From: Haloarcula sp. H-GB4
Lineage (GTDB): Archaea; Halobacteriota; Halobacteria; Halobacteriales; Haloarculaceae
Length of the DNA stretch: 64,000 nucleotides
Assembly (NCBI RefSeq): GCF_030848575.1
Contig: NZ_JAVDDX010000001.1
Coordinates: 186,001 to 250,000, forward strand
Reading direction: 5' to 3'
Part shown: positions 34,463-48,343 of the stretch, piece after piece
Position numbering within the stretch: the stretch's first letter is position 1
How the letters are laid out: each line of letters begins with the position of its first letter
Translations under genes and position numbers: made by a program
Notes under the pieces: generated by a model
What the model was told of the DNA's origin: nothing
The model's input: the letters and a program-made list of their open reading frames with translations, nothing else
Database searches by the model: none

Positions 34463-35653
34463 ATGCACATCGATACGGCTGTAGTCCTCGCTGCGGGTGA
34501 AGGGACTCGCCTCCGGCCGTTGACGCGAAACCGGCCAAAACCTATGTTGCCGGCCGCGAACCGTCCGATCCTTGAACACGTCTTCGATGCGCTGGTCGAG
34601 GCAGGCATCGAGAAACTGGTCGTCGTCGTCGGCTACAAGCGCGACCGCGTTCAGGACCACTTCGGGCCGACGTATCGTGGCGTGCCCATTTCCTACGTGA
34701 GCCAGACGAAACAGCTCGGCAGCGGGCACGCACTTCTTCAGGCACGGAGCGTCGTCGACGGCCCTGTTCTGGTGATGAACGGTGACCGTCTCGTCGACGC
34801 AGCCACTATCGAGGCGGTAAATACCTCCTACGCGGAGACTGGGCACACGAGTATCGCCGTCATCGAACGACAGGATACCAGTCGATACGGAGCTGTCGAG
34901 GTACAGGACGGTGATATCGTTGACATTGTCGAAAAGCCACAACACGACGAATTCAGGCTCATCAATGGCGGCGTGTACGCCTTCAACGGCGACATTTTCG
35001 AGGCTATCGATGAAACGACCCGTCATGCCGGCGAGTTGGCACTGACCGACACTATCGAACTCCTGCTTGAATCTGACCGCGTCCAGGCGGTCGAGATCGA
35101 CGGGATGTGGGTTGACGCAACTTACCCGTGGGACCTGCTGACTGTCGCCCGCGAGGTGCTAGCGCGAGGTCGAGTCGTCGAATCGGCCCGAGACGAACAG
35201 GTCTGGGTCGACAACTCCGCACGCGTCCACGACGAGGCGACCCTCCAGTCGCCGGTCGTCATTGGCCCGGACTGCGAGATTGGCCCGGACGCCGTCATCG
35301 GTCCAAACGTCGCGCTGGGCCGTAATTCCACTATCGGAGCCAACAGCGTCATCCAGCACACCGTCCTCGATGCGGACACGCGTGTCGACCCGAGTTCAAC
35401 CCTCATCGACACTGTCACCGGCCAGGACGTGAATCTGGGCGTCAACACCGTCGTTCCTGGTGGGCCGGCCGATGTTCAGGTCGGCATGGAGGTGTTCGAG
35501 GACCAGCGGCTCGGTGCCGTCATCGCCGACCGTGCCACTGCGCTTGGTGACGTGAGCTTCGTCTCCGGGTCGCTCGTGGGTCCAAATGCCCGGCTCGCCA
35601 CCGGCGTGACAGTCGATGGAACCGTCCGCGAAGGCGCGGAGGTGGTCCGCTGA
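34463..35653 (+). CDS. Bifunctional sugar-1-phosphate nucleotidylyltransferase/acetyltransferase (GlmU-like)
   Basis: 396 residues. The N-terminal nucleotidylyltransferase domain opens AVVLAAGEGTRLRPLT, with the pyrophosphorylase motif and later KPMLPAANRP (substrate lysine). Residues from about 235 form a left-handed beta helix of hexapeptide repeats (SPVVIGPDCEIGPDAVIGPN), an acyltransferase fold. Archaeal enzymes of this form make UDP-N-acetylglucosamine from glucosamine-1-phosphate or related sugars. The TGA overlaps the ATG of glmS by one base, supporting a hexosamine pathway. TATA-like CCATATTGAAG lies about 27-37 bases before the start. Confidence 0.9.
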   Translation: MHIDTAVVLAAGEGTRLRPLTRNRPKPMLPAANRPILEHVFDALVEAGIEKLVVVVGYKRDRVQDHFGPTYRGVPISYVSQTKQLGSGHALLQARSVVDGPVLVMNGDRLVDAATIEAVNTSYAETGHTSIAVIERQDTSRYGAVEVQDGDIVDIVEKPQHDEFRLINGGVYAFNGDIFEAIDETTRHAGELALTDTIELLLESDRVQAVEIDGMWVDATYPWDLLTVAREVLARGRVVESARDEQVWVDNSARVHDEATLQSPVVIGPDCEIGPDAVIGPNVALGRNSTIGANSVIQHTVLDADTRVDPSSTLIDTVTGQDVNLGVNTVVPGGPADVQVGMEVFEDQRLGAVIADRATALGDVSFVSGSLVGPNARLATGVTVDGTVREGAEVVR

Positions 35654-37906: not shown

Positions 37907-39322
37907 TCAATGGTTCCTGTGTGCCGTTATCACATCAATAATAACGCTCCAGACCTGTCTCGAAACGAGTTTCATATCATAGCTAAACGACTGATCGCGC
38001 ACATACTCTAGGTCGTATCGCAGCTTTTCGCCCGGCTCCTTTCCAGTCACATGATTAACTTGGGCAGGCCCGGTCAGACCCGGTTTGACGAACCATCGTT
38101 TCTGCCAGTCAACGACGCCGGTCTGGATATCCGAGTCCAGTTCTGGTCGTTCGGGCCGTGGGCCGACGACACTCATATCGCCCCGCAGTATCGACCAGAG
38201 CTGTGGAATTTCATCCAGATGCGTCTGTCGCAGCACTCGCCCAACCGATGTTACGCGTGGATCAACCCCACCTGCATCTTCGTCGCTGATCTTCGCGCCG
38301 GTTTCGCCTTCCGCGTTCTCGATCATCGACCGGAACTTGTAGATCGAGAAGGTCTCGCCGAACACCGCTGTTCGGTCTTGTCGGTACAGTATTGTGCCGC
38401 CGTCCTCTAGCTTTATCGCTACTACAATCCCAATAATCACCGGCGATAGTACAATCAGCCCGGCCGATGCAAACGCAATATCGAATGCGCGCTTGAGAAT
38501 GTAGTCCTGTATGTCCCAGGGCTCGATTTCCACGTCGACTAGCGTTCCGACCCCACTGCTGGCGGTCAGTACAGAGTCTGTGTGTTCTCGGTGGACTTTT
38601 GCGTTGACACCATACTCGTAGCAGGCGTCGAGCGCGCCGAAGAACTCCGCCCGGTCGGCGTGTTCAAACGCTAGCACGACCGTATCGATATCATACTCGA
38701 CGAGTACATCCTCGATTCGCGAGAGACCACCCAACCGTTCCAATCCACCGGGGTTAGTTCCGCCGTCAGCGATGGCTTCGGTCCGTTCGACTGTCGTCAT
38801 AACACTCGTCGGACAGAGATATCCCAGGAGCGTCCCGTCGACCTCGCTTGCTACTTCCTCTATCACTCGGAGGTTATCGCCGACGACGATGGTTCGCTCG
38901 CCGTTTGATGATGGCCGCTCTCGAATCCACACAAACCACGCGGGCAGTGCGACCAGTAACAACGGGGTCACTAACACGACAGTCAAGCGCGGCAGTTTGT
39001 ATGAATAGTCGAAGTAGCCGATTGTCGCCAGAACGAGAGCTGCCACGAGCACCCGCTTCTGGGCCAGCGCTACAGCATCGAGAATTCTCCGTGGACGGGG
39101 TTTGTACAGCGGGAGGAACACGCTGACGACGACTGCGGTCGTGACTAGGAGTTCGATCGTGAACTCCGGTCCCTTTGGAGGATCGGTCGGCAACCGACTG
39201 AGTATCGGGATGGTTGTCGCTATCGACTGGATGGTAGCGTTGTTGACAAGTGCGACGGCGACCGCTGTCAGCACGACAACGCCGGCTACACTTGCGACTC
39301 GATACCGCCAGCCACTATCCAT
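37907..39322 (-). CDS. Polyprenyl-phosphate sugar-1-phosphate transferase (WbaP/WcaJ-type priming enzyme)
   Basis: 471 residues. Four N-terminal helices (about 8-140) are followed by a nucleotide-binding-like domain (ERTIVVGDNLRVIEE). After a fifth helix comes the catalytic phosphoglycosyltransferase domain from about 285, with KRAFDIAFASAGLIVLSP, the KFRSM motif, DPRVTSVGRVLRQTHLDEI and GDMSVVGPRPE. The enzyme transfers sugar-1-phosphate from a nucleotide sugar to a lipid carrier, starting glycan or exopolysaccharide assembly. Haloarchaeal carriers are dolichyl phosphates. The gene is monocistronic. Confidence 0.92.
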   Translation of the reverse strand: MDSGWRYRVASVAGVVVLTAVAVALVNNATIQSIATTIPILSRLPTDPPKGPEFTIELLVTTAVVVSVFLPLYKPRPRRILDAVALAQKRVLVAALVLATIGYFDYSYKLPRLTVVLVTPLLLVALPAWFVWIRERPSSNGERTIVVGDNLRVIEEVASEVDGTLLGYLCPTSVMTTVERTEAIADGGTNPGGLERLGGLSRIEDVLVEYDIDTVVLAFEHADRAEFFGALDACYEYGVNAKVHREHTDSVLTASSGVGTLVDVEIEPWDIQDYILKRAFDIAFASAGLIVLSPVIIGIVVAIKLEDGGTILYRQDRTAVFGETFSIYKFRSMIENAEGETGAKISDEDAGGVDPRVTSVGRVLRQTHLDEIPQLWSILRGDMSVVGPRPERPELDSDIQTGVVDWQKRWFVKPGLTGPAQVNHVTGKEPGEKLRYDLEYVRDQSFSYDMKLVSRQVWSVIIDVITAHRNH

Positions 39323-39678: not shown

Positions 39679-40434
39679 TCACTCGCTCGCAGCGATGTTT
39701 TCGGCGGCTATCTCCGGATCAATCTCGCCCTGTAGCCGCTTCTCGGCCTGATCGCGGTCCTCGGGATAGCCGATATCGTTCCGCCAGCCGTCCATGCGGA
39801 TCGCGTCGATCGTTCGCCCGGAGTGTAACAGGAGGTCAATCGCATCACTGATCTCGTACTCGCCGCGATTGGAGGGTTGCACCAGATGGCAGGCGTGGAA
39901 GATAGCCGGCGTGAACGTGTAGAACCCGGTCATCACTAGGTTCGACGGCGGCTCTTCCGGTTTCTCGACGACTTCGGTGATCTCGCCGTACTTGTTGGTA
40001 TCACAGACACCGTACCGCCCGGCCTCCTCCCAGGGCACTTCCTCGACGAGGAAGGCGGCGTCGGCGCGTTCTTCGGCCTGACGGTTGACGACGTCTTGGA
40101 GGTTCGCTTCGAAGATATTGTCGCCGAGCATCAGCATGAAGTCGTCGTCGACATGCTCCTCGACGGTCAGGAGTGCGTGGGCAAGGCCGTTCTGTTCGCG
40201 TTGGTGGGTGTAGGTAATCGGGACGCCATCGAACTCGTCCTCGTAGTGATTAATGATGGCCTGCTTCTTGTAGCCGACAACTACCAGCAGTTCGTCAGCA
40301 CCCAGTTCGATCAGTTGCTCGAAGCAGTGGGTCAGAATCGGTTTCCCTGCGACCTCTACCATCCCCTTCGGCTTGTCTTCAGTCAGCGGGCGGAGACGGG
40401 TACCCTCACCAGCGGCGAGTACGACAGCTTTCAT
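39679..40434 (-). CDS. aglF: Glucose-1-phosphate nucleotidylyltransferase, AglF-like
   Basis: 251 residues from MKAVVLAAGEGTRLRPLT. It is a single-domain nucleotidylyltransferase without the hexapeptide tail. Conserved elements: LTEDKPKGMVEVAGKP (substrate lysine), NGLAHALLTVEE, MLGDNIFE (metal aspartate) and GWRNDIGYPED. AglF of Haloferax makes UDP-glucose for N-glycosylation. The gene is divergent with aglM, whose product oxidises UDP-glucose, supporting that role. TTTTATC 24-30 bases upstream implies a leaderless transcript and excludes a TTG start three codons earlier. Confidence 0.88.
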   Translation of the reverse strand: MKAVVLAAGEGTRLRPLTEDKPKGMVEVAGKPILTHCFEQLIELGADELLVVVGYKKQAIINHYEDEFDGVPITYTHQREQNGLAHALLTVEEHVDDDFMLMLGDNIFEANLQDVVNRQAEERADAAFLVEEVPWEEAGRYGVCDTNKYGEITEVVEKPEEPPSNLVMTGFYTFTPAIFHACHLVQPSNRGEYEISDAIDLLLHSGRTIDAIRMDGWRNDIGYPEDRDQAEKRLQGEIDPEIAAENIAASE

Positions 40435-40457
40435 ATATCTCAATTCGTTGGCCGTCC

Positions 40458-40522: not shown

Positions 40523-41830
40523 ATGAACGTCAGTATTGTCGGGAGCGGATACGTCGGGACGACGGTCGCGGCGTGTCTTGCGGATCTCGGGCACGAAGTC
40601 GTAACGATAGACATCGACGAAGACATCGTTGATGCAATCAATGACGGCGAGTCACCGATACACGAACCTGGGCTTGACGAACTCGTCGCCGAACACGGTG
40701 GTGGGCGACTCCGGGCAAGTACCGACTACGAGGAAATACTCGACACTGAGCTAACGATGCTAGCGCTCCCGACGCCCTCCAACGACGATGGAAGCATCGA
40801 CCTCCAGTTCATGGAAGCCGGGGCGGCATCTATCGGTGAGGCGCTGGCTTCTGCCGAGCGCCCGGCAGACGACCCGCATCTCGTCGTCACGAAGTCGACT
40901 GTCGTCCCGAACACGACTGAGGATCGGCTCGCACCACGTATCGCCGACGCCGGTCTTGAACGGGGGGTAGACTTCCTCGTCGCGTCCAATCCCGAGTTCC
41001 AGCGCGAGGGGACGGCCGTCGCGGACTTCCTGAACCCCGACAAGCTCGTCTTCGGGACGGACGACGACCGATCTACGGCCCTGCTCCATGACCTCTACGC
41101 GCCACTACGCGAGGCCGTTGACGGTGACGTGCCGATCGTCGAGACCGGTATCGCCGAGGCCGAGATGATAAAGTACGCCAACAACACATTCCTCGCAACG
41201 AAGGTCAGCCTCATCAACGACATCGGGAACATCTGCAAGGAGTTCAACGTTGACGCCTACGAGGTCGCCGATGCTATCGGACTTGACGACCGAATCAGCG
41301 AACAGTTCCTCCGAAGCGGCGTCGGCTGGGGTGGCAGTTGCTTCCCGAAGGACACGGACGCCATCATCGCCGCGGCGCGGGAGCAGGGATACGACCCTGC
41401 GGTCCTCTCTGCGGCCGTGGAACTGAACGACGCCCAGCCTGAGCGTCTCCTCTCTCTCCTCGACAACCACGCCGACGTGTCCGGCAAACGCGTCGCCGTT
41501 CTTGGATTGGCATTCAAGCCCGGCACGGACGACATCCGGAACACGCGAGCGGTTCCGGTCATCGAGGGATTGCAGGAGCGCGGTGCGGATATCGTCGCCT
41601 ACGACCCCGTTGCCACCGAGAATATGCGCGAACGCTATCCCGACATCGAGTATGCCGACTCGGCTGCGACCGCTCTCGAGGGTGCCTCCGGCGCTATTGT
41701 TGTCACTGACTGGGATGAGTTCGGAGCGCTCGACGCTGAATTCGACGAGATGGCTGCCCCTGTCGTCGTTGACGGCCGACGTATCATTGACCGGCGCGAC
41801 GGCATCACCTATGAAGGATTGACCTGGTAG
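40523..41830 (+). CDS. aglM: UDP-glucose 6-dehydrogenase, AglM-like
   Basis: 435 residues. An N-terminal NAD-binding Rossmann motif ([20 protein letters not shown]) and the conserved acidic loop [11 protein letters not shown], then a central helical dimerisation part ([19 protein letters not shown]). The catalytic cysteine is in [12 protein letters not shown]. The C-terminal UDP-binding domain starts [17 protein letters not shown]. It oxidises UDP-glucose to UDP-glucuronate. AglM is the N-glycosylation enzyme of this type in Haloferax. Start and leaderless promoter agree (TATAATAT 25-32 bases upstream). Confidence 0.93.
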
Positions 41831-41835
41831 CGCGG

Positions 41836-42330
41836 TCAGTTACGCGACCGTTTTCGCCTATCAAGGACTGTTACTGTACCGGCAGCGAGTAGCGCTACCA
41901 CGAGCACGGTCGGGTCCGAAGACACGTACAGGCTCGGTGTCGGCGGCCGCCAGTTTGTGAACGGATACAGCCAAGCGCTTGCCCGCCCGTCGGCGTACAC
42001 CCGCATCCCATCGAGCAGGAGTGACGTGAGGCCGCCGAACGTCACCAGGCCGTACACTCGTCTCCAGTGGCGTCGATCGAATGCGACGGTGATAATTCCA
42101 GCGAGCAACAGGACTCCGCCGAGTGTGGAGAGCGGGTCGTATGAAAACGGGAATCCAAGTATAGATTCAACCGTTCTCTCTTCAAGGACGATTTCTATTT
42201 TCACCAGATCAGGAATCGCCGCACCGCCCATCCCAACGACGACCCAATGCTGATCGAGCCAGTCGACGCGCCAACTCGCGACCGTGAGAAGGATATACGG
42301 AACGAGCAGGTGTGTCAGCAGGTCAGCCAT
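41836..42330 (-). CDS. Membrane-bound metal-dependent hydrolase-like protein (YdjM/DUF457 type)
   Basis: 164 residues starting MADLLTHLLVPYILL. The N-terminal TH and a following GGAAIPDLVKIE fit the YdjM/LexA-regulated membrane hydrolase family, where His and Asp line the active site. Four predicted helices. The ATG overlaps the preceding gene's 3' end by eight bases, so the two are a unit. No biochemical function is known for the family members I recall. A GTG one codon earlier is the alternative start. Confidence 0.75.
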   Translation of the reverse strand: MADLLTHLLVPYILLTVASWRVDWLDQHWVVVGMGGAAIPDLVKIEIVLEERTVESILGFPFSYDPLSTLGGVLLLAGIITVAFDRRHWRRVYGLVTFGGLTSLLLDGMRVYADGRASAWLYPFTNWRPPTPSLYVSSDPTVLVVALLAAGTVTVLDRRKRSRN

Positions 42331-42823
42331 CACGGGCCTCCAGCGTCCACGTCTCTCTATCGATGCGCCAGTACCGGAAGGACAGCAGCAGGAATCCGAA
42401 TGCGCCGATAGCCGAGGCGCCGTACTTGTAGAACTCGGCCCACCGACTGCTGTTAACGACTTCGATGCGCTCGGCCGCTATCGTCTGTGCTGGTTCGAGC
42501 GTCCCGTACACCTGGACAACGCCACCGGGTTCGACGGCTGTTCTCGTCTCAGTGACCCTGAGTGTGATTGCCGTCCCATCGTTTTCGGCCCTGATTCGCA
42601 TCTCGCCTTCGCTGGTCTCTGTCACCGTGCCAAACACCATAAGCTGCTGACCGACGTACGACTCGTACCCAGCCGAAAGGTCCGTAGCATCTGGATACGG
42701 TGACCGTTCGTCCTCCGTAATCTCTGCGTGGACGAACAGTCCCCCGAGTGTCAGACACAGCACAAGCACGATGACGACACGAACCCAGACGCGCACATCC
42801 TCTGTTCTTTCGGTGGGTATCAT
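42323..42823 (-). CDS. Membrane protein with an extracytoplasmic OB-fold-like domain
   Basis: 166 residues. Helix one lies at about 12-32 and helix two at about 133-150. Between them is a beta-rich segment (YVGQQLMVFGTVTETSEG, then VVQVYGTLEPAQTIAAERIE) resembling an OB fold of the tRNA-anti/CcmE type. A short basic tail follows. Co-directional with the STT3-like gene upstream (42 bases away) and overlapping the YdjM-like gene. Possibly an accessory factor of the same machinery, but no function can be assigned. Confidence 0.65.
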   Translation of the reverse strand: MIPTERTEDVRVWVRVVIVLVLCLTLGGLFVHAEITEDERSPYPDATDLSAGYESYVGQQLMVFGTVTETSEGEMRIRAENDGTAITLRVTETRTAVEPGGVVQVYGTLEPAQTIAAERIEVVNSSRWAEFYKYGASAIGAFGFLLLSFRYWRIDRETWTLEARDG

Positions 42824-42865: not shown

Positions 42866-45199
42866 TCACTCGACAGTGACGTTACCGCCGCCGTATACTG
42901 TCTGCTCTGTGACTTTGACGGTCGTTTCACTACCGCTCTCGGTCGTCACGGTGTACGTCCCTGGGTTTGCGACGGTAACAGTGAACTCACCGTTTCGGTT
43001 GGCTGTCGTCTGGCGCTCGTAGTCGATCTCTCTGTCCGAGACAGCGACCGTCGTTACGATCGAGACGGTCGAATTCGGGGCCACAGTCCCCTGTATCGTC
43101 CCACCGGGGACGACTGCGAACGCCCTGTGGCTCCCGTCTTCGCTTGTGAAGAGCGGTCGGTAGTGAGACAGGCCGTCCACATCTCCGTTCCGGCTTCCGA
43201 AGTGCTGGTGTAGCCGAGTATATATCGCGGTCGGCTCCTCGATGTCAGTTTCTGTCGTCACGACGTATCCGACTCGACTGGAAATCCGATTATGGGCCTT
43301 ATCAGGGTCTGTGGCTGTGACGAACGGCCCGTACGTCTGGCGGGCGTAGCTGTAGCTCCGTGACTCGCCATTGACGAAGTAGTTGTACACGCGATTCTGT
43401 CCCCAGCGGCTGAGGACGTAGTTTCCGGGATATTCGAGTCCGCGCTCGGCGGCGTCTGCCTCGATTGCAGTCGCCGCGTCGTATGTCCCATCCTCGACGA
43501 GTACTTGACTCGTTTTGACTGGTACCTGCACCATCCCGAGGGCCCCGAACAACAGGAACAGCACGAACAGCGACACAACTGCGCGGCTATCCGGAACGAG
43601 TACGTCTCGCAGATCTCTGTCGCCAGTCGCCAGCACCGGACGGGCCAGATCGACCCACGAGGCGACCCAGACGAACGCGAAGCCAGAAAACAGCGCGAGA
43701 AACGGGGCCAGTTCGCCGACGAAACGGACCTGAATCACAGCAAGGGCGAACAGTAGCCAGGCGTAGCTACTGGCGACGAGCCAGCCGCTCCGGTCGCTCC
43801 GAGCGAGGTCGACGCCCCACACCATTGCTGGGAGCGCTAGGAACAGTGTCAGGCCGAGCAGGAACAGGAAGCCAAATGCGTCTGCGTTGAACAGTCCGTA
43901 CGTCTCAGCAATCGCGTCGGATCGAAACAGCGTATCGAGACGCCTGCTGAACGTTCCCCACTGTTCTGTGAAGCCAAAGCGGAAGACAAGGAGGCCGACG
44001 ACGCCAAGCCCGATATCGACCGCAGCCAGCTGTCCGGCGGTGCCACCGAAGCGTCTGGCTACTTCTGCTGTCACGATGACGACAACTGTGCCCACCGTCA
44101 GCAGTGCTGGCGCACTAGCGACAAGCGCAGTTTGCCAGCCGGTGACAGTATGGACACCGCCAGCGAGTATCGCACCGAGGCTGACACCGGCAAGAACTGG
44201 TGCGTTCTTGACCAGTGCCGATCGGTCGTTTGAGACATCCAGCAGTGTCTGTCCCAGCACCACCAGACTGGCTGGCAGGACAAGCAACGGTCCGGCCTCC
44301 CACGCAAGCACCTGGCCGGCGATCCCGACCCCGATACCGACCGCGGCAATCCACGGCTGTGGTCGACGAAGCGACGTTCGATTCGTGGCCGTCGTTAGCG
44401 CAACCACGAGTGCAAGGGCGGTGAGCCCCAGCCAGGGGTAGTCGAAGGCGTGGTGGTCCGCGAATCCGAGGCTCGTCCGGAAGGCGTGGCCGGGAATAAA
44501 CGCCAGAAAGAGGACCGATGCAAGACCGACGCGCCGGTCGCTAGACACCCGAACTGCGAGTAGATAGAGCAGGACGCTCGTGACGAGTGCTGACACGACC
44601 GGATACCAGGCGAGAACGTGGCCAATAACTGGTTTGCTCCCACCAAAGAGGCTGGCGACCCACCAGAGCGTCGCAATCGTGAGTGGCTCCCCGTTGGTTA
44701 TTCCACCAGGGAGCACGGAGAGCGCCCCGAAATCGGCTGCGCTGGCGGCGTTCGCCGCGACCTGTTCGATGTGGTACCTGTAGTAGTAGGGGTCGTTACT
44801 TGATAAGACGATGTCGCCACCGCGATATATTGACCCGATGACGTACGTTCGGGCGACGAACACGACCGCTATGGCGGCAACGAGCAGGCCAGTTGCTCGT
44901 GCGTCGAAATCAAAGCGTAGCGCGTCACCGAGCGCCAGCCCGTGCCCGCTGTCGCTACCAACCTCGGATTCGCCGTTGAGCGCGGCCCGCACAGCGTCGG
45001 GATCGGCGACGCGGTACTCGTCACCAGCCTTCTCGACGATGCCAGCGGAGACAAGTTCACCGAACTGGCCCGAATCGATGGGAATGTCGTCGAACGTCCA
45101 GCCGTCCTGCCCGTCGTCGACGGCCAGAACCGCTTCTGTCGCATCTCGTAGCTCGGGCCGGTCATCGAGTACCGCTTCCGTCCCGGGCGTATCGCTCAT
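42866..45199 (-). CDS. STT3/AglB-like membrane protein (GT66-related) lacking the canonical WWDxG motif
   Basis: 777 residues. Residues 1-95 are a soluble domain like a winged helix (WTFDDIPIDSGQFGELVSAG). About twelve helices follow, with SNDPYYYRYH at 134-143, whose Asp136 is the likely first catalytic acid, and FADHHAFDYPW at 246-256. The soluble part, from about 560, has RWGQNRVYNYF with Trp599, where oligosaccharyltransferases normally have WWDxG. The last 100 residues form a beta sandwich. Related to AglB, but a standard role in N-glycosylation is uncertain. Its position in a sugar-nucleotide cluster suggests a glycan transfer role. Confidence 0.8.
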   Translation of the reverse strand: MSDTPGTEAVLDDRPELRDATEAVLAVDDGQDGWTFDDIPIDSGQFGELVSAGIVEKAGDEYRVADPDAVRAALNGESEVGSDSGHGLALGDALRFDFDARATGLLVAAIAVVFVARTYVIGSIYRGGDIVLSSNDPYYYRYHIEQVAANAASAADFGALSVLPGGITNGEPLTIATLWWVASLFGGSKPVIGHVLAWYPVVSALVTSVLLYLLAVRVSSDRRVGLASVLFLAFIPGHAFRTSLGFADHHAFDYPWLGLTALALVVALTTATNRTSLRRPQPWIAAVGIGVGIAGQVLAWEAGPLLVLPASLVVLGQTLLDVSNDRSALVKNAPVLAGVSLGAILAGGVHTVTGWQTALVASAPALLTVGTVVVIVTAEVARRFGGTAGQLAAVDIGLGVVGLLVFRFGFTEQWGTFSRRLDTLFRSDAIAETYGLFNADAFGFLFLLGLTLFLALPAMVWGVDLARSDRSGWLVASSYAWLLFALAVIQVRFVGELAPFLALFSGFAFVWVASWVDLARPVLATGDRDLRDVLVPDSRAVVSLFVLFLLFGALGMVQVPVKTSQVLVEDGTYDAATAIEADAAERGLEYPGNYVLSRWGQNRVYNYFVNGESRSYSYARQTYGPFVTATDPDKAHNRISSRVGYVVTTETDIEEPTAIYTRLHQHFGSRNGDVDGLSHYRPLFTSEDGSHRAFAVVPGGTIQGTVAPNSTVSIVTTVAVSDREIDYERQTTANRNGEFTVTVANPGTYTVTTESGSETTVKVTEQTVYGGGNVTVE

Positions 45200-46243: not shown

Positions 46244-47171
46244 TGGTGGTGAATTTTTCCGCGAGGTCGCGGACACCCTCGCGGAGCGTCCACGATGGTT
46301 CGAAGCCGGTCTCGCTCAGCCGGTCGAAGTTGACGTGATACGACGGGCCGGGATGCTCGTCTTCGAGGTAGGTCACGTCGACCGGGGCGACCTCGTCGGC
46401 GACGATATCGGCAATCTCCGAGATCTGGTAGTTCGCGTCCATCGACCCGACGTTGTACACCGGTTCGTCCCAGGAATCGGGGTCGCACGCCGCCTCCGCG
46501 TAGGCACGGGCAGCGTCTCGGACGTGGATGAACGGCCGCCAGTTCGAGCCGTCGCCGTAGACGGTGAGCGAGCGGTCGGTGAGTGCCCGAAACACGAAGT
46601 AGTTCACGACGAGGTTGAACCGGATGCCCGGCGAGTGGCCGAAGTTCGTGGCCATTCGCAGGGCGGTGCCGCTCATGTCGAATTCCTCGCAGTACTCCTG
46701 CAGTAGCGTTTCGGACTGGAGTTTCGTCTCTGCGTAGGGGTTGATGGGATCTGGGTTGACCGTCTCGTCGATGTCGGTGCTGGTCGCGCGGCCGTAGACG
46801 TTGCACGAGGAGGCAAAGACCACGTGGTCGACCCCGAGTTTGCCGGCTGCAGTCAGGAGGTTTTCGGTGCCGTCGTAGTTGATAGCGAACGTCTCGTCGC
46901 GGCGCTCGTGTGTGCTCGACGCCCCGGTGATGGCAGCGAGGTGGATGACGCGGTCGACGCCACGCATAGCGCTCTCCACGTCGCCGTACTCGCGGACGTC
47001 GCCCCGGCGGAATTCGAGCCCGTCCCCGAGCGTCCCCAGCAGCGCCCGCGGGGACCCTGAGGAGAGGTCGTCGAAGACGACGATGTCATCCACGCGGTCG
47101 TCCGCCCGGAGCAACGGTATCAGCGCGCTGCCGATGTAGCCACAGGCCCCGGTGACCAGCACGTCCATCAT
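46236..47171 (-). CDS. NAD-dependent nucleotide-sugar epimerase (UDP-glucose 4-epimerase-like)
   Basis: 311 residues with VTGACGYIGSALIPLL, HLAAITGAS, SSCNVYGRATS (serine) and NPYAETKLQSE (catalytic Tyr-Lys). RPFIHVRDAARAYAEA is a conserved C-terminal element. It begins with two adjacent Met codons, and either may be used. The first overlaps the upstream stop by one base. Fits UDP-sugar epimerase or related enzyme; specificity is not readable. Confidence 0.87.
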   Translation of the reverse strand: MMDVLVTGACGYIGSALIPLLRADDRVDDIVVFDDLSSGSPRALLGTLGDGLEFRRGDVREYGDVESAMRGVDRVIHLAAITGASSTHERRDETFAINYDGTENLLTAAGKLGVDHVVFASSCNVYGRATSTDIDETVNPDPINPYAETKLQSETLLQEYCEEFDMSGTALRMATNFGHSPGIRFNLVVNYFVFRALTDRSLTVYGDGSNWRPFIHVRDAARAYAEAACDPDSWDEPVYNVGSMDANYQISEIADIVADEVAPVDVTYLEDEHPGPSYHVNFDRLSETGFEPSWTLREGVRDLAEKFTTNV

Positions 47172-48343
47172 CAGTCCTCGCTCAGGACGCCCGGGAGGAA
47201 GCGGTCCTCGTGGGACTCAATGGTGTCGGCATAGCGGGTCAGCGTCCCGAAGATGTCGTCGACGCCGTCCTCGAAGGACTGTGACTGGCCGCCGATGAGG
47301 TCGTCATAGCAGTCGTTCTCGATCTCCATCTTGTGGGTCTCGTCCTCGTCGCGGGGGTTCTCGAAGTGCTCGACATCTACGTCGAGGTCGTACTCGCTGC
47401 CCACGTCTGCAATCGTCTCAGCGATCTCGACGATACTGATGGCGCGCGTGACCTGGTTGTACACTGTCAGGCCCTCGGGGCGCTCGTCTGGGTCGGTGAG
47501 GGCCACTTCGGCCAGCCCTTCGACGGCGTCTTCGAGTGAGATGAACGGCTTGCGCTGCTCGCCCTTGCCGTAGACGGTGACGGGATAGCCCGCGGCGGCC
47601 TGTGCGCAAAATCGGTGCGTGACCGTTCCGAAGTAGTAGTCGAAGTCAAAGCGCGTCTTGAGGCGGTCGTCTTCGCGGGTTTCCTCGGTTTCGGTCCCGT
47701 AGACGATGGCCGTCCGCACGTCAGAAATTGGGATGTCAAACTGGGTGTGGGCCAGCCGCATGTTCTGTGCGTCGAAGCCCTTCGTCGCGTGGTACCAGCT
47801 CCCGCCCATGTTGGGGAACGGCACGTCGTCGCGCTCGCCCTGATTCTCCATCGTCGCGCCGCCCTCGGGAATCGGGAACTCCGGCGCGCCGTAGACGCCC
47901 GTCGTCGTCGTCTCGACGAAGTGGGTGTCTGTGAGGTCGTGTTCTTCGAGGCCCCACAGGAGGTTCCGCGTCGCCTGGAGGTTGTTGTGCTGGGTGTAGT
48001 TCGCCCGCTCGCCGTTGATCTGGGAGTACGGTGCGGAGGGCTGTGCGGCGGTGTGAACGACGACTTCTGGCTCGTGGACCGCCAGCAGTTCGTCGACGAA
48101 TGACTTCTCAGCGAGGTCGCCCTCGACGAAAGAGAGGTTCGTCAGGCCGTGGACCTCGCGGGCCGCGTCGAGGCGCTCGTCGATGCTGGCGACCGGTGTC
48201 GCACTCGTCGCGCCGACGTCTTCAACCCACCCACGCCGGGAGAAATTGTCGACAAGCAGCACTCGGTCGTCTGTTCGGTCTGCGATTCGCAGTGCGGCTG
48301 GCCACCCGACGTAGCCGTCGCCGCCAGTGATGAGGATAGTCAT
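47171..48343 (-). CDS. SQD1/Agl3-like UDP-sulfoquinovose synthase family protein
   Basis: 390 residues with ITGGDGYVGWPAALRIA, HTAAQPSAPYSQINGER, TTGVYGAPEFPIPEGG and TRFDFDYYFGTVTHRF, then GYPVTVYGKGEQRKPFISLED. This set resembles plant SQD1 and Sulfolobus Agl3, which add sulfite to UDP-glucose to give UDP-sulfoquinovose. The resemblance is from memory. It heads the three-gene operon (45248-48343, leftward). A haloarchaeal sulfosugar on S-layer glycans or lipids would need such an enzyme, and Haloarcula hispanica glycans reportedly contain sulfoquinovosamine. Confidence 0.82.
   Translation of the reverse strand: MTILITGGDGYVGWPAALRIADRTDDRVLLVDNFSRRGWVEDVGATSATPVASIDERLDAAREVHGLTNLSFVEGDLAEKSFVDELLAVHEPEVVVHTAAQPSAPYSQINGERANYTQHNNLQATRNLLWGLEEHDLTDTHFVETTTTGVYGAPEFPIPEGGATMENQGERDDVPFPNMGGSWYHATKGFDAQNMRLAHTQFDIPISDVRTAIVYGTETEETREDDRLKTRFDFDYYFGTVTHRFCAQAAAGYPVTVYGKGEQRKPFISLEDAVEGLAEVALTDPDERPEGLTVYNQVTRAISIVEIAETIADVGSEYDLDVDVEHFENPRDEDETHKMEIENDCYDDLIGGQSQSFEDGVDDIFGTLTRYADTIESHEDRFLPGVLSED

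Follow-up and report, generated by a model that had tools for sequence, protein, structure and literature searches.

STT3-type N-glycosylation is taught as requiring the sequon N-x-S/T, which is read by the WWDYG motif of the enzyme. The stretch of Haloarcula sp. H-GB4 DNA analysed here (the window, 64,000 nucleotides) encodes an STT3/AglB-like protein in which this motif is replaced, raising the question of which glycan such a protein may transfer, and to which acceptor.

An STT3/AglB paralogue with a replaced WWDYG motif

The gene occupies 42866..45199 on the minus strand, as do all parts of the protein given below, and encodes 777 amino acids; the plus frame of the same interval contains many stops. 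The protein scored above the cut-offs of Pfam STT3 (34.1 bits, cut-off 24.5) and Pfam AglB_L1 (28.5 bits, cut-off 23.6). With the NCBIfam model archaeo_STT3 (TIGR04154) it reached 138.8 bits, far under the cut-off of 450, and thus falls outside that class. The preliminary description of the locus, an STT3/AglB-like protein with a winged-helix N-terminus and without WWDxG, was confirmed, with the reading frame placed on the minus strand; neither a WWDxG motif elsewhere in the protein nor a classification as standard AglB was found.

An AlphaFold2 model of the paralogue (pLDDT 90.8) was compared to the PDB by Foldseek. The best match was a complex of A. fulgidus AglB with peptide and dolichol phosphate (7e9s, E 1.7e-21, TM 0.66). 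Together, the model, the Foldseek match to AglB and the Pfam STT3 score identify an STT3-type GT-C membrane fold, with the transmembrane region at residues 100-565 (43505..44902; also delimited by profile alignment). The long peripheral beta domain AglB_L1 covers residues 699-772 (42884..43105; hhalign to AglB E 8.5e-16). The paralogue shares the GT-C fold, both DXD motifs, the TIXE-type Glu, the Arg and the peripheral L1 domain with AglB-Long of A. fulgidus (AF_0380; 7e9s, 5gmy, 3waj), but differs from it by the replaced WWDYG, a DK motif not recognisable in the sequence consensus, a smaller soluble domain and an added N-terminal winged helix. An STT3-like GT-C fold is also found in the C-mannosyltransferase DPY19 (7zli), which uses DolP-Man as donor and Trp as acceptor; DPY19 was a lower Foldseek match and was missing from the sequence-level PDB matches of the paralogue.

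Conservation of the membrane-side motifs was examined in a family alignment of 74 distinct sequences, each 600 amino acids or longer. In DXD motif 1 (44792..44797), N135-D136 is present in all 74 members and pairs with Asp47 of A. fulgidus AglB. DXD motif 2, G245-F-A-D248-H249-H250 (44450..44467), has Asp at position 248 in 63 members and Glu in the other 11, while H249 occurs in 74/74. These are the acidic residues that the preliminary description had read as kept in SNDPYYY and FADHH. To this we add the conservation of E432 (72/74) in the TIXE-type segment A429-I-A-E432 (43904..43915), which lies opposite TIAE (Glu360) in A. fulgidus AglB, and of the invariant R492 (74/74; 43724..43726), which pairs with the Arg of QNRF. 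In the profile alignment all four elements coincide with their A. fulgidus AglB counterparts, so that the two DXD motifs and the TIXE/SVSE Glu of external loop 5 of STT3/AglB/PglB are present (motif roles from PMC8342417 and PMC3703281). A subgroup (L088, L074, L068, L089, L071, L072, L086, L076, L075 and L079) has E-H-R instead of D-H-H in DXD motif 2, and its metal binding may differ. Some members of approximately 1000 amino acids (L063, L061, L029, L059 and others) carry a lectin-like C-terminal domain of LamG type (Laminin_G_3) beyond AglB_L1.

On the soluble side, WWD was found in 0/74 family members. WWDYG occurred in 26/26 canonical haloarchaeal AglB proteins, that is, those in which our script located the motif, with four loci left unparsed. 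In its place the family has V-[LF]-[ST]-x-W-G-x-N-R-x-Y-N-Y-F-V, with V595, W599, R603 and N606 invariant (74/74); in the window it reads V595-L-S-R-W599-G-Q-N602-R603-V-Y605-N606-Y-F-V-N-G-E612 (43364..43417). A profile alignment of the family with haloarchaeal AglB (642 columns, hhalign E 3.7e-37) places VLSRWGQ over VLSWWDY, indicating that the second Trp is the one residue of WWDYG retained, with the first Trp, Asp, Tyr and Gly replaced. This agrees with the earlier assignment of RWGQNRVYNYF, with Trp599, to the WWDxG position. When the soluble domains alone were aligned by hhalign, no significance was obtained around the motif (second and third hits, E 0.05-0.14), and the register of the motif therefore relies on the full-length profile alignment and the predicted strand-helix pattern. 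No conserved Asp/Lys or Met/Ile pattern corresponding to a DK or MI motif was seen in the consensus of the family, read at the level of sequence.

The N-terminal domain (residues 1-77, 44969..45199) is predicted by the model to be a winged helix (helices 7-13, 15-30, 43-51 and 67-74, strands 55-58 and 61-64), followed by a disordered linker (residues 78-95), in line with the earlier reading of this region. It is homologous to the N-terminus of a haloarchaeal DUF106/EMC3_TMCO1-like protein (hhalign E 2.9e-17, reversed control 0.05), and blastp matched it to DUF106 proteins of 13 genomes (E 3e-8 to 4e-4). By sequence, it is thus an N-terminal module common to different membrane proteins. The DUF106/EMC3_TMCO1-like proteins sharing the module include L092:2386-3276 of the own genome (C1, at about 315.4-316.3 kb) and L176-L192. 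The same domain (E 2e-15) begins a 601-amino-acid GT-C-like protein with a WIDESFS motif in genome G015 (L193:1198-3000, plus strand), approximately 20 kb from the family member of that genome. As the N-terminus of STT3 proteins is cytosolic, the winged helix is probably cytosolic as well and therefore unlikely to take part in choosing or binding the acceptor; a coupling to secretion or glycan assembly is our guess at its role.

Distribution and genomic context

Family members (matches better than 1e-100, counted by hand from the result table) were present in approximately 157 of 294 haloarchaeal genomes; the remaining ones gave weak AglB- or DUF106-type matches only. Outside the haloarchaeal class, partial matches of ordinary AglB type were obtained and no family member was seen. 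AglB was detected in 116 of 117 genomes. The own genome, for which Haloarcula species gave matches of about 90% identity, encodes one canonical AglB at C1:904721-907342 with an intact motif (VLSWWDYGHW), answering the proposal to search for a canonical aglB elsewhere in it. With the family in about half of the haloarchaea and its homologue AglB in nearly all of them, the paralogue is a patchy accessory enzyme on top of AglB. In a tree, the family and AglB were each monophyletic, the support value of the family being unusable after rerooting. Broken copies occur as well, as a split frame in G028:C39:190915-193655 (L020, L046), with one in-frame stop each in G077 and G088, and with three stops in a second family copy of G170.

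Several genes around the paralogue are predicted to act in glycan synthesis. At lower coordinates in the window lie an archaeal GlmU-type nucleotidyltransferase/acetyltransferase gene (34463..35653, plus strand; TIGR03992, 312 bits) and a gene for a WcaJ/EPS-type polyprenyl glycosylphosphotransferase (Bac_transf; 37907..39322, minus strand), which, by family match and co-occurrence, we propose as the maker of a pyrophosphate-linked donor. Sugar nucleotides may be supplied by an AglF-type UTP-glucose-1-phosphate uridylyltransferase (39679..40443, minus strand; NF041313, 441 bits) and an AglM-type UDP-glucose 6-dehydrogenase (40523..41830, plus strand; NF041297, 759 bits). Two small membrane proteins are encoded directly downstream of the paralogue on the minus strand (42323-42823 and 41836-42333), one YdjM-like and one without a family match; they accompany the family mainly in Haloarcula. 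On the other side, a gene resembling UDP-sulfoquinovose synthase (SQD1; 47171-48343, minus strand), which with NF041015 scored 350.9 bits, under the cut-off of 575, adjoins two further epimerase genes.

Across genomes, the WcaJ-type transferase was the commonest neighbour. It lay within 8 kb at 31 of 51 family loci and at 0 of 12 loci of canonical aglB (P 1e-4). Among 80 genomes, a homologue (match better than 1e-120) was present in 39/40 that carry the family and in 4/40 that lack it (Fisher P 9e-17). Genome G117 has the family and the sequence ANAS and no WcaJ homologue at this threshold. WcaJ-type enzymes produce pyrophosphate-linked sugars. The donors of haloarchaeal AglB, in contrast, are linked to dolichol monophosphate (PMC8674786, PMC6591318).

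Covariation with the N-terminal Asn of the S-layer protein

The S-layer protein of each genome was taken as the best match to the TIGR04207 signal; TIGR04216 had been tried as finder and was discarded, as it matched 7/65 genomes only. A genome was scored positive if Asn occurred among the first two residues past the Ala run of the signal of its main S-layer protein. Cleavage sites were set by this simple rule, without a trained predictor, and the mature N-termini are thus predicted ones. In an exploratory set, viewed before the rule was fixed, an N-terminal Asn was found in 30/40 genomes with the family and in 4/34 without it (P 3.4e-8). In a holdout of fresh genomes, for which the rule had been written beforehand, the effect was weaker (19/37 compared to 4/38, P 1.5e-4). 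Genomes that carry the family and lack the Asn numbered 10/40 and 18/37, respectively. A more relaxed parse of the signal end, run to check the strict rule, yielded 46/77 and 8/75 in the pooled sets. The excess of Asn was confined to positions 1 and 2 (31/77 and 17/77), later positions having 5-12 of about 75, and the association survived permutation restricted to families (P 5e-5) or to 17 genera (P 0.002).

Under the relaxed parse, 36 of the 46 N-terminal Asn residues in genomes with the family were outside N-x-S/T and 10 inside, compared to 5 of 8 inside in genomes without it; Pro at +1 occurred in 0/46. In Haloarcula, the genus of the window, the N-terminal Asn often stands in N-V-S, a canonical sequon. 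Physical proximity was also observed: in six genomes, compared to 0.6 expected, no more than 8 kb separates the S-layer gene from the family gene.

One of the genomes, G092, encodes a bacteriorhodopsin 100% identical to an H. salinarum query sequence, and on this basis we take it to be H. salinarum. It contains AglB and a family member at C1:932302-934620. The S-layer gene (TIGR04216, 1181 bits) ends at 928986, about 3.3 kb from the family gene, and a WcaJ homologue is located at 938966, 4.3 kb away. Past the Ala run the S-layer protein reads A-N-A-D, an Asn without Ser at +2.

Asn-2 of the H. salinarum S-layer glycoprotein carries a repeating-unit glycan that is built on Dol-PP and persists when Ser-4 is exchanged for Val, Leu or Asn, an observation termed unexplained (PMC2952790). 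A single oligosaccharyltransferase gene had been found in this organism at the time of that review (PMC2952790), and a 2019 study left undecided whether AglB handles the Asn-2 glycan (PMC6591318). An H. salinarum strain with aglB deleted is available (PMC6591318). The Asn-2 transferase, known as an activity, shares with the paralogue the organism, the donor type expected from WcaJ and, as predicted for the paralogue, independence from Ser at +2 (PMC2952790); the tie between this activity and the gene is one that we infer.

A candidate second oligosaccharyltransferase and its alternatives

Based on these results, we consider it fairly probable that the paralogue is a second oligosaccharyltransferase beside AglB, acting on the N-terminal Asn of the S-layer protein without need of Ser or Thr at +2. 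In the proposed pathway, a WcaJ-type sugar-1-phosphate transferase would start an exopolysaccharide-like glycan on a pyrophosphate-linked polyprenol, and the paralogue would move this glycan onto an Asn at the very beginning of the mature S-layer glycoprotein. Metal binding and activation of the Asn would depend on Glu432 and the DXD motifs that the paralogue has kept, and the conserved surface S-x-W-G-x-N-R-x-Y-N-Y-F would substitute for the Trp-Trp-Asp pocket. Ser or Thr at +2 may be dispensable because the pocket that reads the hydroxyl is gone. In H. salinarum, the paralogue would then be the enzyme for the repeating-unit glycan at Asn-2. The wider proposal, a new class of oligosaccharyltransferase that reads an N-terminal Asn by position rather than by N-x-S/T, draws on a polysaccharide donor linked through pyrophosphate and would settle the Halobacterium Asn-2 problem, is in our judgement evenly balanced between right and wrong. 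The preliminary description had named three options, a non-standard sequon, another acceptor or a non-protein glycan; this interpretation is supported in part, the covariation favouring the first option in the form of an Asn site independent of Ser/Thr.

The near-constant company of an initiating transferase of EPS type, the adjoining sugar-nucleotide genes and the LamG-type lectin domain on some members would also suit a ligase or polymerase of an EPS pathway that places WcaJ-initiated glycans on sugar or lipid instead of protein, the S-layer correlation being indirect. H. hispanica, moreover, produces an EPS of acidic character by a route still to be worked out (PMC9943897). Such a function does not account for the retention of the TIXE-type Glu and of AglB-like soluble and peripheral domains, nor for the covariation with a specific residue position of the S-layer protein and the adjacency of S-layer genes in several lineages, and we regard it as rather unlikely. 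The paralogue could also build or polymerise the glycan, with another enzyme attaching it. A paralogous AglB serving ordinary N-x-S/T sites, with labour divided by glycan type, would fit the core catalytic residues, the frequent N-V-S of Haloarcula and the precedent of three AglB paralogues in A. fulgidus (PMC3703281). Such an enzyme would hardly be expected to have lost four residues of WWDYG family-wide, to show no conserved DK motif in the family consensus and to be associated with Asn residues mostly outside N-x-S/T; this explanation appears very unlikely.

Transfer of a single sugar such as sulfoquinovosamine from DolP onto an already protein-linked glycan is suggested by the adjacent SQD1-like gene and by DolP-QuiNS reported in H. 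hispanica (PMC9943897). We dropped it as the main idea, since the SQD1-like neighbour is mostly confined to Haloarcula, lying near only 2 of 40 family loci outside this genus, whereas the near-universal partner is WcaJ, a maker of pyrophosphate-linked donors; we consider such a transfer highly improbable. Very improbable, finally, is glycosylation of another residue, either O-glycosylation in the Thr-rich S-layer region or C-glycosylation as by DPY19: the latter is an STT3-like GT-C enzyme among the Foldseek matches, but it is Asn that the covariation singles out. We also considered, and rejected, the family as the enzyme that makes the low-salt glycan at Asn-498 in H. volcanii independently of AglB (PMC3871713), since it is absent from all sampled genomes of a Haloferax-like genus (g51, identity inferred) and no named Haloferax locus was found.

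If the favoured reading, a second oligosaccharyltransferase for the N-terminal S-layer Asn, is true, a widespread STT3 paralogue without WWDYG would represent a natural oligosaccharyltransferase of relaxed sequon. It would provide a candidate gene for the H. salinarum Asn-2 puzzle, unexplained according to the review (PMC2952790) and open in the later study (PMC6591318). The candidate can be tested in genetically tractable strains, and such an enzyme might be used to attach polysaccharides to chosen sites of proteins.
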